NCBI GenBank assembly: GCA_002722105.1
Contig: PBKF01000039.1
Span: 1-15,006, forward strand
DNA from: Fidelibacterota bacterium
Lineage (GTDB): Bacteria; Marinisomatota; Marinisomatia; Marinisomatales; UBA1611
Direction: 5' to 3'
DNA: 15,006 bases
Of the stretch, positions 3,425 to 9,041 are shown piece by piece. A program made the position numbers and the translations under genes. The first letter of the stretch is position 1. Every line of letters starts with the position of its first letter. Under the pieces are notes generated by a model, which was given only the letters and a program-made list of their open reading frames with translations, ran no database searches and had not been told where the DNA came from.

Positions 3425-5287
3425 TTAAGAAGAAATCAATTCTTCAATTATTTTTAACATATTATTATATTCTTTCTCTTCAAATAATCTAGTTAGAAGA
3501 ACGATTTTACCTTTCTGATCAATAACAATATTTCTGGTCACACCGCTATTTTTATCTGCAAACATTCCAAAAATATCTGCATTTGGATCTAGCGCAAGGG
3601 GATAGGTAACTTTCATTTCCTTTTTGAAGTTAATGACTGTTTCAAGTGGCTCATCACGATCAATACCAATTAAAACCACATTCTCACCTTTATATTTTTG
3701 CTGGATATCCTTTTCAAGGTGGGGCATCTCCTGGCGGCAAACAGAACACCAGCTTGCTGTGAATTGAAGAATAACTAATTTTCCTTTCAAGTCTGATAGT
3801 CTAACTTTTTTTCCGTTAGTATATTCCATTTCAAAATCAGGTGCTTGCTCACCGATATTGACAATAAAACCTCTCTCATCTGAGCCACGTTTTTTTACCA
3901 TTTCAATAAATGGTTTACTACCTGCTCGAAGTTGACGCTCTTGGGTTTCAAAATCCACTTCATATAACCCAAATTTCATATCATATCCTTCAGCCCATTC
4001 GAAATTATCCATTAAACTCCAATAAAAGTATCCTCTGATATCTAACCTATCTTTTAATGCACGATTCATTGCATACAGATATCTTTTGATAAAGATGGGG
4101 CGAATATTATCATTTCTATCTGCTAATCCATTTTCTGTAACATAAATAGGAACTTTCAAGCTGCTGATGGTATGTAATGCACTATAAAATCCCTCAGGGT
4201 ACAATGCATAATCCATATCCGTTTGAATATCTTTTGGTCTTCTTTCAAATATAAACGGTTCATTCGGATTTAATTGGCCCTTAACGTGAAACCTTGAGTA
4301 ATAGTTTAATCCGATAAAATCAAATGATCCAATTGCATCAGGATTCTTGAGTTCATTTTTTACCATTCCCGGCATATAAAATATTGATTGTCCAGTTTGA
4401 AAAAATTGTAAGGTTGAGTTTGTGAAAACATCATTTAAAACAAAACTAAATACCCAATCTAGAATGTGCCATCTTCTCAAAGGTTCGAATTGAAATATAT
4501 TTTTTACCAATCCAATTTCTACTTTAGTTCCACCAGGCAAACTTTTAAGCTTATTATAAATTTGAATGTGAGCATTCAGCATATTCTCAAGAACAATTCC
4601 TGCAAGTGCAGGGTCTTTTTTCCCAGGCGGAAATACTCCATTAAAATAACCCTGTGAGACATACACAGATGGTTCATTGATTGTGCACCATATGGGTACT
4701 AGGGAGTGTAATTCATTAAATATTAGTTCGGAGAGTTCCAGGAAATGTTTGATATTTTCTTTTTTCTCAAATGCGCCCAACTTTTCAAACCAGATAGGGT
4801 GTGTAAAATGATGTAGAGTAATAACTGGTGTTATTTCAGATTTTATCAGTGCATTACAAAGATTTTTATAATGCTGTATTACATTATAATCAATTTTTCC
4901 TTTTTTAGGTTCGATTTTGGACCATGCAATAGAGAATCGGTAATGATTAACTCCTAATTCTTTCATGAGGCCAATATCAGTATTGTATTGATTCCAATGA
5001 TCAGCTGCTATCCCTGATTTATCTCCATTATGTATTCTGCTATTGTTATTTTCATCAAAGGAATTCTCCCATATGTACCAATTATTATTATCGTTATACC
5101 CTTCCACTTGATGTGCAGCAGTCGCTGTACCCCAGGCGAATGTACTGGGAAAATGAATATCTTCAGTATCTATTGTATCCCAGTCCCACTCTACTTCAGG
5201 ATTAGATATAGATAAATATGTTACAGAAAAAACCCAACCAAAAAGTATCAGAGTAGATAGTGCGATTAATAATCTTTTAATGCTCAT
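3425..5287 (-). CDS. Membrane-anchored GH1 beta-glycosidase fused to a TlpA-like thioredoxin domain
   Basis: From the preferred ATG at 5287 the protein has 620 residues (an ATG at 5320 would overlap the upstream gene). The start gives MSIKRLLIALSTLILFGWVF, a signal-anchor, so the rest should face the periplasm. Residues about 45-465 are a complete glycoside hydrolase family 1 barrel. It has FPSTFAWGTATAAHQVEG, the acid/base Glu205 in TINEP, the nucleophile Glu385 in VTENG, and the sugar-site motif DNFEWAEGYDMKFGL. GH1 enzymes hydrolyse beta-glucosides and related beta-glycosides, and most are cytoplasmic. Residues about 475-620 are a ResA/TlpA-type redoxin: GEQAPDFEM, then a CXXC active site WCSVC (Cys514, Cys517). 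Thr (GVTRN) stands where many thioredoxins have a cis-proline. There is no stop or frame break at the junction. An in-frame ATG at 3901 could give the thioredoxin domain alone, without a signal. The gene lies 2 nt downstream of the PLP-enzyme gene and is probably translated with it. The substrate is not deducible. Confidence 0.9.
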   Translation of the reverse strand: MSIKRLLIALSTLILFGWVFSVTYLSISNPEVEWDWDTIDTEDIHFPSTFAWGTATAAHQVEGYNDNNNWYIWENSFDENNNSRIHNGDKSGIAADHWNQYNTDIGLMKELGVNHYRFSIAWSKIEPKKGKIDYNVIQHYKNLCNALIKSEITPVITLHHFTHPIWFEKLGAFEKKENIKHFLELSELIFNELHSLVPIWCTINEPSVYVSQGYFNGVFPPGKKDPALAGIVLENMLNAHIQIYNKLKSLPGGTKVEIGLVKNIFQFEPLRRWHILDWVFSFVLNDVFTNSTLQFFQTGQSIFYMPGMVKNELKNPDAIGSFDFIGLNYYSRFHVKGQLNPNEPFIFERRPKDIQTDMDYALYPEGFYSALHTISSLKVPIYVTENGLADRNDNIRPIFIKRYLYAMNRALKDRLDIRGYFYWSLMDNFEWAEGYDMKFGLYEVDFETQERQLRAGSKPFIEMVKKRGSDERGFIVNIGEQAPDFEMEYTNGKKVRLSDLKGKLVILQFTASWCSVCRQEMPHLEKDIQQKYKGENVVLIGIDRDEPLETVINFKKEMKVTYPLALDPNADIFGMFADKNSGVTRNIVIDQKGKIVLLTRLFEEKEYNNMLKIIEELISS

Positions 5288-5289
5288 AT

Positions 5290-6243
5290 TCAGAATGAAA
5301 ACCCTTGTTCTCTCATCCAATCATCATTTGGAAATTTAGTCATATAATTCCGGATGCCATCCGGTAGCAATACAAGACAATTCTGTCCCTGTTTTAGTTG
5401 TGTTGCAGTTTTCAGTGCTGCAATCATGGCAGTACCAGATGAGCCACCACATAACAATCCTTCTTCTTTGATAAGTCGTCTTGCCATTAGAAAGGATTCT
5501 TCATCCTTGGTTTTCACATATTCATCAACGAGAGAATTATCTAAGACATCCGGGAAAAAATCATAGCCAATACCTTCTACCAAATAAGGAGATATTTCAG
5601 TACCGCCTCCAAGAATGGAACCCACAGGGTCTGCGCCGATAACTTTGATTCCAGGGATTTCTTCCTTAAGTCGTGTAGCTACACCTGTTATTGTACCGCC
5701 AGTACCTACACCAATTACAATCATATTTAAATCAGTTCCAAAATCATCCAATATTTCCTGGGCTGTTCCTTCATAATGTGCATTAGGATTCGATGGGTTT
5801 GAATATTGATCTAAAATATGGGAATTTGGTATTTCTTGATTGAGTTTTTTTGCTACACCAATATGACTCTTCGGGTCATCCCAGGCCGCTTCTGTTGGCG
5901 TCCTTATAATTTCTGCACCTAATGCTTCCAAAGAAATCTGTTTTTCCTTGCTCATTTTTTCAGGCATGGTGATGATACAACGATATCCCTTTACAGCTGA
6001 TGCTAAAGCCATTCCTTGTCCAGTATTACCGGAAGTTGGCTCAATGAGTGTATCACCAGGCTTAATCCGACCACTTTTTTCTGCATCTTCAACCATTCTC
6101 CATCCAATCCGATCTTTCACCGACCCACCAGGATTGAAATATTCACATTTAACAAATAGGTCGCAGTCCAGTTCGCTACCGATTTTATTCAGTCGAATAA
6201 CTGGTGTGGTGCCAATAGTGTCTAATATTGAATTAAATATCAT
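5290..6243 (-). CDS. Cystathionine beta-synthase-like PLP enzyme (catalytic domain only)
   Basis: 317 residues of the fold-type II PLP beta-family. Lys43 in GGSVKDR is the Schiff-base lysine, SGNTG at 71-75 binds the substrate carboxylate, and [10 protein letters not shown] near 185 holds the PLP phosphate. Several segments follow cystathionine beta-synthase rather than ordinary cysteine synthase: [10 protein letters not shown], the [10 protein letters not shown] and NSHILDQY region, [21 protein letters not shown] and GIRNYMTKF. The known reaction of that branch condenses serine (or an activated serine) with homocysteine to cystathionine; many bacterial relatives can also act as O-acetylserine sulfhydrylases. 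The haem-binding N-terminal and regulatory CBS-pair C-terminal domains of the animal enzyme are absent, as is usual in short bacterial forms. A good Shine-Dalgarno precedes the ATG. It is the first gene of a two-gene operon. Family is certain; cystathionine synthase versus cysteine synthase activity is less so. Confidence 0.9.
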
Positions 6244-6252
6244 TTTTTTTAG

Positions 6253-6258
6253 TTCCTC
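6253..6258 (-). promoter_or_regulatory. Ribosome binding site of the PLP-enzyme gene
   Basis: On the minus strand GAGGAA lies 9 nt before the ATG at 6243. It is one of the few clear Shine-Dalgarno sequences in the window and supports that start. Confidence 0.65.
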
Positions 6259-6278
6259 ATAAAAAGTTCTCTTTTTAA

Positions 6279-6345
6279 GTAAAACGTCTTCAATAAATTA
6301 CAGGACTCAATTCAATCTGTACACGTAAAACATCTTTGATAAATA
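6279..6345 (+). repeat. Two imperfect 21-bp direct repeats in the divergent promoter gap
   Basis: The segment beginning GTAAAACGTCTT at 6279 recurs as GTAAAACATCTT at 6325, and both copies are followed by an ATAAAT stretch. The two copies are 46 bp apart. They lie between the divergent PLP-enzyme gene and the EF-hand oxidoreductase operon, and the second copy overlaps the proposed TTG start of the latter. They could be operator half-sites controlling one or both directions, or chance similarity in AT-rich DNA. No convincing -35/-10 pair could be picked out. Confidence 0.4.
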
Positions 6346-7823
6346 CATCTAAAAAGTTAGTGGGTCCGTTTCTTGTAGATCTCCGCAATAAATTTCAAGA
6401 AATTGCGGGTGATGACCAACTTATTGACAGAAACGAATTTCGCAAAGGATTAGAAATTTCCAATGAAGGTATTTCTAATCGTTTATTCGATATTTTTGAC
6501 AGGGATAATAACGGTTCGATAGACTTTGAAGAATTCATGGCAACTATTGAGACGATCATCAGTGGAACAAATCAGGATAAGATAAAATTTGCATTTAATC
6601 TTCATGATTTGGATGACAGTGGTTTTATAGATGGCCCTGAGCTAAAAATACTAATAGAACAAAGTTTTTTAGAAAATAATCTTGATTATGATGAATTTCA
6701 ACTTGACCTGTTAGTGGATGAGTTTTTTAAGCGAGCTGACAAGGATAAAAGTGGAACCATTGATTTCAATGAATTCTTAGATGTTGCCGATGCTTTTCCT
6801 GATTTTTTGAATGGTTTTGCAGTTAATCCCGTAAGTTGGCTCGTATCTGACCGTTATGATAAAGCCAAACAAAATGTAGGTGATGATAGTAAACCCTTAA
6901 TTCAGAATCAAATTCAAGTACAAGATATCGGTATTTTACAATGGCTATTAATTCCAAGGCTGATTTTTCTTTATAATGTCCTTATCAATAGAAAAAAGAA
7001 TAGAGAGTTTGTTGATTTGAAGGCAATTCATCTTCTACCATCAAAAATTTTAGAACTTACAATTTCTACACCGGATGGGTTTACTTTTAACCCCGGAGAT
7101 TATTTATATGTTAATTGTCATGAGATTTCCAGAATGGAATGGTATCCTTTCAATATTATTCATTATACAAATTCAGGAGATCTTACTCTTCATATAAAAT
7201 CAAATAATAAATGGACAAGGAAATTGTATCGTGAAATAGTAGAAGGCCTTCAAAATAGAGAAGATATAAACTGGTCCATAAGAATTGATGGCCCTTACGG
7301 TTCGTCAAGTAATAATATTATGAATACGGAGCATGCAATTTTGGTGGGTGCTGGTCATGGCATCTCCAGAATAGCTCCAATACTACAAGACATTGCTTTA
7401 AAATCAAAAGAAGATAAAGATCAATTATCCTTGAAACGTATTGATCTTTACTGGCTTAATAATGATGAGCATTATTTTGAATGGTTTACGAAATTATTGG
7501 ATGAGATAAATTTTAAAAATGATGATTCTTTTTTTCGGTATCACATTTTTTTTGTAGATAAAAACCCCGAAGAAATGAAAGAAAGAATGATCTATATTTC
7601 CACTGATATATTGAACAAGGAAACAGATGTAAAGTTAGTTGATAATATTTGGGTAAATTCGAGTTTTGGAATTCCAAATTGGAAAGATGAATTGAAAAAT
7701 ATTTGCTCCGTAGGTGAAAATGTAGATTCAAAATTATTTTTTAGCGGACCCAGAAAGTTGAGGGGCAACTTAATTGAAGAATGTAAAAATTTAAATATAG
7801 TCTATCACGAGGGAGATTTTTAA
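6336..7823 (+). CDS. EF-hand protein with NOX5/RBOH-type FAD-NADPH dehydrogenase module, no haem domain
   Basis: 495 residues from a TTG at 6336; no in-frame ATG occurs before the EF-hands, and GTG at 6360 is an alternative. Three canonical EF-hand loops are at 55-66 (DRDNNGSIDFEE), 91-102 (DLDDSGFIDGPE) and 135-146 (DKDKSGTIDFNE). A degenerate one at about 23-34 makes a four-hand set as in NOX5. Residues 202-495 follow the NADPH oxidase dehydrogenase domain: WLLIPRLIF, LLPSKILELTI, NPGDYLYVNC, EWYPFNI (FAD site), LHIKSNNKWTRKLY, IDGPYG, LVGAGHGIS (NADPH loop), LYWLNNDEHYFEWF, FGIPNWKDEL, FFSGP and a terminal Phe. The six-helix haem domain that normally separates the two parts is missing: only about 48 residues with one hydrophobic stretch (198-217) join them. 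Oxidase residues are altered (His to Tyr in HPF, Thr to Asn after it, Cys to Ser in CGP). It probably transfers electrons from NAD(P)H through FAD under Ca2+ control to an unknown acceptor. It leads a three-gene redox operon. Confidence 0.85.
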   Translation: MINTSKKLVGPFLVDLRNKFQEIAGDDQLIDRNEFRKGLEISNEGISNRLFDIFDRDNNGSIDFEEFMATIETIISGTNQDKIKFAFNLHDLDDSGFIDGPELKILIEQSFLENNLDYDEFQLDLLVDEFFKRADKDKSGTIDFNEFLDVADAFPDFLNGFAVNPVSWLVSDRYDKAKQNVGDDSKPLIQNQIQVQDIGILQWLLIPRLIFLYNVLINRKKNREFVDLKAIHLLPSKILELTISTPDGFTFNPGDYLYVNCHEISRMEWYPFNIIHYTNSGDLTLHIKSNNKWTRKLYREIVEGLQNREDINWSIRIDGPYGSSSNNIMNTEHAILVGAGHGISRIAPILQDIALKSKEDKDQLSLKRIDLYWLNNDEHYFEWFTKLLDEINFKNDDSFFRYHIFFVDKNPEEMKERMIYISTDILNKETDVKLVDNIWVNSSFGIPNWKDELKNICSVGENVDSKLFFSGPRKLRGNLIEECKNLNIVYHEGDF

Positions 7824-7827
7824 TAAA

Positions 7828-8556
7828 TTGAAACTTCTAGAAAATAAAATTGCAATTATTACTGGAGGTGGACGTGGCATTGGGAAAGCCACTGCACATC
7901 AATTTTCTGAAGAAGGTGCAACGGTTATCATTGCAGAATTTGATAAAAAAACAGGAGAAGAGACAGCTAAAGCAGTTAATGGGTATTTTGTAAAAACTGA
8001 CATTAGTAATGAAAAGAGCGTCTCTTATTTATTTAAATATATAAAAAAAGAATTCAGAAGATTGGATATTTTGGTAAATAATGCAGGTGTACTTCTAGAC
8101 AATACACTGAGAAAAATGAATACTGAACAATTTGATGCTGTAATTAATGTTAACCTCCGCGGGGTATATTTTTGTGGAAAAGCAGCTGCCGAGATGATGA
8201 AAGATCAGGGTAGTGGTGTAATTCTTAATGCATCTTCCGTTGTAGCACATAATGGTAATTTTGGTCAAACAAACTATATAGCCAGCAAGACTGGTGTTGT
8301 AGGTATGACAAAAGTCTGGGCCAGGGAGTTGGGAAAAGATGGAATTCGGGTAAATGCTATAGCACCTGGTTTTATACAAACAGATATGATACTGGGAATG
8401 CCGGAAAAATTAATTAATATGATGGAAGAAAAGGTACCTCTCAAACGATGGGGAAAACCGGAAGATGTGGCGAATGCTTACACATTTTTAGCTAGTGATG
8501 AAGCCAGTTATATTTCTGGAACTGTTTTAAATGTCGATGGAGGAGTAGTGGTTTAA
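7828..8556 (+). CDS. Short-chain dehydrogenase/reductase, FabG-like
   Basis: 242 residues from a TTG start 4 nt after the preceding stop, with GGGAG upstream. It is a classical SDR. The cofactor loop is TGGGRGIG (12-19), NNAG is at 84-87, and the catalytic set is Asn109, Ser137, Tyr150 and Lys154 in YIASK. The IAPGFIQTDM and LNVDGG segments are typical of beta-ketoacyl-ACP reductases. An acidic residue at the end of the second strand (IIAEFD, Glu37) suggests NAD(H) more than NADP(H), but this is inference. FabG-like enzymes reduce 3-oxoacyl thioesters, though many homologues act on other ketones or alcohols. Its place between two flavin-type reductases, not in a fatty-acid cluster, argues against a housekeeping fabG role. 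Its stop overlaps the next start by one base (TAATG), indicating translational coupling. Confidence 0.9.
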   Translation: MKLLENKIAIITGGGRGIGKATAHQFSEEGATVIIAEFDKKTGEETAKAVNGYFVKTDISNEKSVSYLFKYIKKEFRRLDILVNNAGVLLDNTLRKMNTEQFDAVINVNLRGVYFCGKAAAEMMKDQGSGVILNASSVVAHNGNFGQTNYIASKTGVVGMTKVWARELGKDGIRVNAIAPGFIQTDMILGMPEKLINMMEEKVPLKRWGKPEDVANAYTFLASDEASYISGTVLNVDGGVVV

Positions 8557-9041
8557 TGAAAATTTTAATTGTGTCATCTTCTAAAGGGAATAATTATAGA
8601 CTTGGGCAAAAAATAAGCATAATGCTGAATGTTGACCATGAGCTGATATCCTTAGAAGATTATACACTGCCTTTGTTTATTCCTGATGGAAAAGGGGCCG
8701 ATAAAAATTTATTAGATGAGTTAGTGCAAAAATTTGAATCTGCTGATGGATTTATTTTCTGTGCACCGGAGTATAATGCTGGAATTTCACCTATCCTTAC
8801 AAATACCATTACATGGATAACAGTTTCTACTAAGCAATGGCGACAAGCTTTCTTAGATAAAAAAGCTTTGATTGCCACTCACAGTGGAAGCTCAGCCTAT
8901 GCCTTTCTTTCTGCTTTTCGACACCAGTTAGAATATATGGGCTGTACCGTATATCATCGAAATATTTCCATTCATAAAAATGCACAATTTAATCATCATT
9001 CCGTTGGTAGTATATTAATCGGATTTAAAAAACTATTTTAG
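8556..9041 (+). CDS. NADPH-dependent FMN reductase family protein (flavodoxin fold)
   Basis: 161 residues. The N terminus MKILIVSSSKGNNYRLGQKI is a flavodoxin-like first strand and phosphate loop. APEYNAGISPILTNTITWIT at 70-89 is the signature of the NADPH-dependent FMN reductase / azoreductase / chromate-reductase family (Pfam FMN_red type), where APEYN contacts the flavin. GSSAYAFLSAFRHQLEYMG is the usual helix after the fourth strand. The protein is slightly shorter than typical members (around 180) because the last helix is short. It probably reduces FMN, quinones or similar two-electron acceptors with NAD(P)H. It overlaps the SDR stop by one base and is the last gene before a strong hairpin, so it is part of the same transcript as the EF-hand dehydrogenase. 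Confidence 0.88.
   Translation: MKILIVSSSKGNNYRLGQKISIMLNVDHELISLEDYTLPLFIPDGKGADKNLLDELVQKFESADGFIFCAPEYNAGISPILTNTITWITVSTKQWRQAFLDKKALIATHSGSSAYAFLSAFRHQLEYMGCTVYHRNISIHKNAQFNHHSVGSILIGFKKLF

Follow-up and report, generated by a model that had tools for sequence, protein, structure and literature searches.

An uncultured marine bacterial family carries a conserved NOX5-like protein that is without nearly all of the haem part of the enzyme. The gene lies in a 15,006-nucleotide stretch of a Fidelibacterota bacterium (contig PBKF01000039.1, assembly GCA_002722105.1; hereafter the window), where an open reading frame (ORF) at 6336..7823 encodes four EF-hands, three of them canonical, a linker of about 40 residues and a NOX-type FAD/NAD(P) dehydrogenase. 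We refer to this protein as EF-DH. Its probable role is that of a reductase or a sensor that responds to calcium, and the reading that we favour, with a probability of about one half, is that of a calcium-sensing, membrane-peripheral flavin reductase preferring NADH, derived from a NOX5 and belonging to one Marinimicrobia family.

The Pfam search gave EF-hand matches in three stretches of EF-DH together with FAD_binding_8 (8.5e-20) and NAD_binding_6 (3e-20) (Table 1), and no match to Ferric_reduct (PF01794) at E-values up to 1. Among solved structures the best sequence match is to a NOX5 chain of 719 residues (6sz5 and others; E 4.9e-61), in three stretches; residues 17-171 of EF-DH pair with residues 14-168 of the chain and residues 201-300 with 374-475, while the 205 chain residues 169-373 are unmatched and stand opposite about 29 residues of EF-DH. 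An earlier note, made from the DNA letters without database searches, had proposed just such a bacterial combination of EF-hands and NOX dehydrogenase without the haem domain, and the architecture proved real, as did the three canonical EF-hands (EF2-EF4), the degenerate one (EF1) and the terminal phenylalanine (F495). The outcomes that would have spoken against it did not occur: the best match is a NOX5 and not an unrelated reductase, no haem-binding region with paired histidines was found, and the same full layout recurs in homologues, as it would not after a frameshift or deletion in the assembly.

Of the 7999 best protein candidates scored, 149 matched at E <= 0.001. Among the 120 matches listed, 115 are full-length proteins of 481-507 residues, 43-98% identical, which have EF-hands, FAD_binding_8 and NAD_binding_6 and are without PF01794; because so many share the complete layout, EF-DH is not an assembly accident. 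Candidatus Marinimicrobia is the source of the only listed homologue that bears an organism name, and six EF-DH loci recovered from named genome records by a contig scan with short peptide patterns all belong to Candidatus Neomarinimicrobiota. The genome-scale search covered this one phylum (245 genomes) and gave matches in 24 genomes, all within one family of 33; by our reading of the rows, the haem-less type occurs in 23 of these 33 genomes and in none of the 212 others. With most listed homologues lacking an organism name and one phylum covered at genome scale, haem-less relatives may also exist beyond Marinimicrobia. No stop codon interrupts any of the 27 match rows from the 24 genomes. 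The copies in G122, G136 and G145 are pieces of 60-136 residues only, those in G003, G005, G124 and G143 are also incomplete, G131 has a full-length NOX5 alone, and G002 has both a haem-less EF-DH and a full-length NOX5. As these metagenome-assembled genomes (MAGs) are fragmentary, a gene missing from any one of them is weak proof of absence. For residue comparisons we aligned a haem-less set (the window protein and its 120 listed matches, P0001-P0121, less five of under 480 residues, leaving 116) with a NOX5 set (a query and 120 listed of its 820 matches, P0122-P0242, less four of under 640 residues, leaving 117); since each set was chosen by similarity to one query, neither is a random sample.

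The span from W168 to P207 measures 37-43 residues in the 116 haem-less proteins, the window protein included, against 202-227 in the 117 NOX5s. TM1-TM5 are absent, and a highly conserved segment (QWLLIPRLIFLYN), which we take from NOX topology to be TM6, is retained; the linker that the earlier note saw in place of the haem domain thus stands in for TM1-TM5 and not for TM6. Four histidine columns (289, 293, 348 and 361 of P0133) are occupied in 114-117 of the 117 NOX5s and are gaps in all 116 haem-less proteins, and a fifth (275) holds Q in 105, H in six and E in five of the latter; the five are candidate haem ligands. Histidines within the linker number none in 91 proteins, one in 19, two in five and four in one, so that no conserved pair exists. 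EF-DH therefore has no six-helix haem domain with the four histidine ligands of NOX-family NADPH oxidases and, because the membrane haem part is nearly all missing, cannot move electrons across the membrane as NOX5 does.

In all 116 haem-less proteins EF2, EF3 and EF4 have the full set of calcium ligands (103 of 117 NOX5s). Calcium binding by EF-DH is very likely, and its four-hand arrangement with a non-canonical EF1 is that of the NOX5 subfamily (PMC9421330; papers are cited by PubMed Central number). The dehydrogenase is of the NOX type for both FAD and NAD(P): P271-F272 occurs in 116/116, GxG in 110/116, R or K at 288 in 95/116 and SGP or CGP in 112/116 (99 and 13, respectively), DGP.G and G471 are kept, and an aromatic residue lies within the final six positions of 115 proteins. 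The nucleotide contacts have changed. In DUOX1, R1424 and R1495 bind the 2'-phosphate of NADPH and R1337 has been suggested to aid the approach of the nicotinamide (PMC11564096); these residues align with N376, I446 and K288 of EF-DH. Both positions of the 2'-phosphate pair are R or K in none of the 116 haem-less proteins and in 107 of the 117 NOX5s, so this trait of NADPH-specific NOX enzymes is lacking, as it also is in SpNOX (PMC11564096). Other residues have become fixed in the haem-less set, with N214 and R/K345 each in 116/116 and D352 in 115/116; S352 has changed to D in those 115 and T273 to N in 99/116 (the first letter of a change being the NOX5 majority at that window position). EF-DH shares with Fre-like, FNR-type flavin reductases the FNR fold, the FAD and NAD(P)H sites and the lack of a haem domain, and not a close sequence relation (32.5 bits against a cut-off of 230 for the NCBIfam NAD(P)H-flavin reductase model). 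EF-DH carries the components of a calcium-responsive flavin reductase, and its determinants argue for NADH.

The pattern of constraint has been inverted relative to NOX5. Among haem-less pairs at 40-50% overall identity the EF domain is 57%, the TM6 segment 55%, the FAD lobe 40% and the NAD lobe 37% identical, whereas the corresponding values for NOX5 pairs are 39%, 39%, 47% and 48%. The 50-60% and 60-75% bins show the same contrast, with the EF domain and TM6 segment more conserved than either dehydrogenase lobe among haem-less proteins and less conserved than either among NOX5s. The pairs are non-independent and the NOX5 set is taxonomically wider, which qualifies the comparison; nevertheless it indicates that selection is now strongest on the sensor and membrane segment and weaker on the nucleotide lobe.

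A tree was built from 78 rows, hand-chosen out of 233, over 453 columns from which the haem domain was excluded; it is unrooted and has no outgroup. One branch (SH-aLRT 100) separates the 27 haem-less rows from all the others, and three Marinimicrobia NOX5s are nearest to them (support 92, not starred). Over shared columns the window protein is 34-37% identical to these three, 35% to the NOX5 of Cylindrospermum stagnale (csNOX5) and 30-31% to three animal NOX5s; the protein is thus somewhat nearer to bacterial than to animal NOX5s, where the earlier note had matched its dehydrogenase with eukaryotic NOX5/RBOH enzymes. The haem-less set as a whole has a mean identity of 0.311 to animal NOX5. 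An animal origin, with haem-less proteins and animal NOX5s as one clade, was rejected (p-AU 0.027, from a quick tree and for a group picked after seeing the tree). With no root and a long haem-less branch, the tree alone leaves room for an older origin, and it is the retained TM6 segment together with the NOX5-type motif after the EF-hands that favours loss of TM1-TM5 from a NOX5. EF-DH is more likely a derived NOX5 than a pre-oxidase or a decaying relic.

On the reading that we favour, EF-DH would have arisen by loss of TM1-TM5 from a NOX5 and then taken up a new role in one Marinimicrobia family. Its TM6 segment would hold it to the inner membrane on the cytosolic side, and it would use NADH rather than NADPH and, there being no haem to accept electrons, act as a reductase that passes hydride to FAD or free flavin. 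Free flavin would be a candidate acceptor, as would the FMN_red protein at those loci that encode one beside EF-DH. NOX5 is turned on when EF3-EF4 rearrange with calcium, an inhibitory segment is pushed aside and the helix that covers the NADPH site becomes looser (PMC11088703); in EF-DH, calcium on EF2-EF4 may switch access to the nucleotide site through a different contact. There is a precedent for the chemistry in the isolated, haem-free dehydrogenase domain of SpNOX (SpNOX DH), which can use either NADH or NADPH to reduce flavin (PMC11031084).

Several observations weigh against this reading. As regards derivation, the tree is unrooted and outgroup-free, and the haem-less set is alike in mean identity to Marinimicrobia NOX5 (0.345) and csNOX5 (0.344). 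As regards the membrane seat, the TM6 segment has a predicted local distance difference test (pLDDT) score of about 62 in one AlphaFold model and about 40 in the other, and its Kyte-Doolittle hydropathy over 19 residues averages 1.43 and reaches 1.6 or more in only 26/116 haem-less proteins, whereas the best stretch of that length in NOX5s averages 2.34. (The first model had a mean pLDDT of 76.8 and a pTM of 0.67, the second, with NOX5 rows added, 71.7 and 0.54; fold searches used the first model only, and Foldseek and VIA rows with rmsd >10 were set aside.) As regards catalysis, the Cys of CGP (C470) is replaced by Ser in 101/116, the His of HPF (H270) by Tyr in 99/116, GxG is missing in six, the T-P that follows it is altered, with P345 changed to R/K in all 116, and 23 of the 51 dehydrogenase sites that are at least 97% conserved in NOX5 have another majority residue in the haem-less set, which at matched divergence conserves its NAD lobe less than any other domain although NOX5 conserves that lobe best or equal best. 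The FAD would miss contacts supplied by the transmembrane domain in SpNOX, where the Km for FAD is 12.89 uM for SpNOX DH and 0.049 uM for the full protein, i.e. binding is far weaker (PMC11031084). As regards gating, calcium fails to activate the csNOX5 mutants D611H, D631R and D631A (PMC7317449), and the pair is D-D in 106/117 NOX5s and 3/116 haem-less proteins, the window protein having E and K there (csNOX5 numbering offset of 24, inferred from 693 versus 669 residues); judged from these residues, the sensor-dehydrogenase contact must differ from that of NOX5. The nicotinamide end of the site is kept, but the NADPH phosphate contacts and the activating Asp pair are mostly lost, so that the calcium-gated NAD(P)H:FAD enzyme of the earlier note is a tentative reading as to substrate, gating contact and even catalysis.

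Some of these features could be read instead as those of a non-catalytic calcium sensor, a pseudo-oxidase whose dehydrogenase now serves for ligand binding or docking, so that calcium and perhaps a nucleotide steer a membrane partner. The inverted constraint (57/55/37% for EF, TM6 and NAD regions against 39/39/48% in NOX5), the newly fixed R/K345, D352 and N214, the Cys-to-Ser change and the lost Arg pair all suit it; retention of P-F, GxG, DGP.G, G471 and the C-terminal aromatic fits a working flavin/nicotinamide site, and Ser in place of Cys need not, in our judgement, end hydride transfer. We hold this alternative possible, with less confidence than a working reductase, and equally tentative is its broader form, in which a NOX5 would have been turned into a calcium signalling protein without transmembrane redox chemistry, its haem core removed, its sensor and membrane segment the most constrained parts and its dehydrogenase refitted (R/K345, D352) for another nucleotide ligand. 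EF-DH could also be one half of a split NOX, handing electrons in trans to a haem-b protein of the membrane in the way that Fre reduces MsrQ, an arrangement for which the SpNOX DH and Fre-MsrQ parallel (PMC11031084) and the retained membrane segment speak. It appears improbable: PF01794 occurs in one of six EF-DH MAGs, and there in a complete NOX5, and it matches six of 130 genomes of the order (three above cut-off), among which G002 is the sole EF-DH carrier. That search was made with PF01794 only, in incomplete MAGs, and did not extend to cytochrome b561-type partners; no haem protein was found among the six window genes scanned, the neighbours at other EF-DH loci not having been scanned for them.

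Two further explanations concern where the gene came from. An EF-hand reductase that predates insertion of the haem domain, the pre-oxidase module of the earlier note, would agree with the unrooted tree, the long haem-less branch (0.72) and a midpoint root that sets the haem-less clade outside the sampled NOX5s. We consider it very unlikely, given that EF-DH carries the TM6 segment and post-EF motif of a NOX5 and is found in one family of the phylum searched, while the listed NOX5 matches span Cyanobacteria, proteobacterial MAGs and animals. Least credible of all is an artefact of assembly or binning, or a decaying pseudogene, to which the fragmentary MAGs lend some colour; the 115 full-length homologues, the uninterrupted genomic copies and the conserved synteny contradict it, and the strong conservation makes a relic in the sense of decay, which the earlier note had also raised, less likely.

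EF-DH resembles NOX5 (human and csNOX5; PDB 8u85, 5o0x, 8cap) in domain order, non-canonical EF1, post-EF motif, TM6 segment and dehydrogenase fold, and differs in the absence of TM1-TM5 and the conserved histidines and in the loss, in most members, of the 2'-phosphate Arg pair, the CGP Cys and the activating Asp pair. The full-length Marinimicrobia NOX5s (P0122 in G002; 662 residues in G131, locus L048) come from the same bacterial family and are nearest in the tree, but have a complete haem domain, and in G131 the gene is found next to multi-CXXCH cytochrome genes and not at the CysK locus. The splice variants NOX4D and NOX2-beta are likewise without most transmembrane helices and the haem histidines, NOX4D reportedly keeping one of six helices (PMC3485160, PMC5739649); they are mammalian products of enzymes without EF-hands, whereas EF-DH is a separate conserved bacterial gene. 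PMC3485160 leaves open whether such splice forms produce reactive oxygen species of their own. SpNOX DH and Fre-type flavin reductases illustrate that a NOX dehydrogenase is able to reduce flavin without haem (PMC11031084), although SpNOX DH is a laboratory fragment without EF-hands and only about 16% identical in structural alignment. In the openly licensed PMC literature we found no description of a conserved bacterial gene with EF-hands and a NOX dehydrogenase and no haem domain. What appears to be new is the separate, conserved bacterial gene for a haem-less EF-hand NOX; mammalian splice forms without most helices were already known.

Table 1. Parts of EF-DH and neighbouring features, in window coordinates
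Feature	Position	Strand	Remarks
EF-DH, haem-less NOX5-like protein	6336..7823	+	495 aa, TTG start; coordinates exact; ORF call, Pfam, PDB and homologue searches
EF1 loop, residues 25-36	6408..6443	+	degenerate; G at position 1 in 116/116 haem-less proteins
EF2 loop, residues 55-66	6498..6533	+	canonical; ligand pattern in 116/116
EF3 loop, residues 91-102	6606..6641	+	canonical; Pfam and alignment
EF4 loop, residues 135-146	6738..6773	+	canonical; Pfam and alignment
Post-EF motif, residues 153-171 (contains FPDFLNGFAVNPVSWL)	6792..6848	+	aligns with post-EF4 stretch of NOX5
Variable linker, residues 172-198	6849..6929	+	position of TM1-TM5 in NOX5
TM6 segment and basic tail, residues 199-222 (GILQWLLIPRLIFLYNVLINRKKN)	6930..7001	+	retained; alignment, models, hydropathy
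FAD_binding_8 domain, residues 227-325	7014..7310	+	Pfam
NAD_binding_6 domain, residues 334-483	7335..7784	+	Pfam
Terminal Phe 495	7818..7820	+	F last in 95/116 haem-less proteins
Divergent intergenic region, EF-DH / CysK-like gene	6244..6335	.	80-96 bp in 19 loci (18 and the window)
PALP (CysK-like) gene	5290..6243	-	conserved divergent neighbour
GH1 glycosidase fused to AhpC/redoxin domain	3425..5320	-	conserved neighbour; N-terminal hydrophobic stretch by eye
Short-chain dehydrogenase/reductase (SDR; FabG-like)	7828..8556	+	starts 4 bp after EF-DH; cotranscription likely from spacing
FMN_red flavodoxin-fold protein	8556..9041	+	overlaps SDR end; cotranscription likely from spacing

Twenty-two loci were compared, 21 with EF-DH and one (L048) with the NOX5 of G131. 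EF-DH is divergent from the CysK-like gene in all 18 of the 21 loci that extend upstream, and blocks such as AAAAAGTTCTCT, ATAAATTA and AAAACATC recur by eye in the intergenic region of several relatives. The redoxin occurs without GH1 in L002, L006 and L040. An SDR gene is near EF-DH in L001, L002, L003 and L005, and also beside the G145 fragment, in which CGP and the final Phe are still present. In 17 of the 19 loci that reach past EF-DH (exceptions, L001 and L050), a small heat-shock gene lies downstream of it, not always as the next gene. In L050 (8123-12524, G124), CysK, GH1 and redoxin flank EF-DH as an inverted repeat that is probably an assembly artefact. In the window itself, ORFs 8-1078 and 1156-2700 are adjacent and closely similar by eye, an apparent tandem duplication. 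A defence role was rejected, PADLOC having given no match at E up to 0.01.

Some genomes depart from this arrangement. In G130 (L082 328-462) EF-DH is absent and a similar upstream region joins the SDR gene directly; a tree of four neighbouring genes places this genome with the window and G002 (support 99 and 95, 43% of columns filled). The absence is likely a clean loss or an assembly gap; barring an assembly error, then, EF-DH is a gene that can be lost. The conserved locus is present without EF-DH in G131 and G132, in G133 EF-DH is not beside CysK, and the neighbour-gene tree does not choose between one gain of EF-DH and several losses. The full-length NOX5 gene of G131 directly follows a multi-CXXCH cytochrome gene (L048 8507-16250), with two more multi-CXXCH genes (Pfam cytochrome matches) and a porin-like ORF (by eye) at the same locus, and that of G002 is preceded by a 229-residue ORF with CXXCH motifs (L007 577-3254). 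The full-length Marinimicrobia NOX5 may thus be wired to periplasmic cytochromes.

The haem core is the defining part of a NOX enzyme, and EF-DH allows one to ask what calcium does to the dehydrogenase alone; as a natural truncation it offers a way to study how calcium sets off hydride transfer in NOX5. In evolutionary terms EF-DH would be a case of modular loss in a NOX lineage, with full-length NOX5 persisting in the same bacterial family, and for this uncultured marine phylum it would be a candidate protein dedicated to the calcium response.
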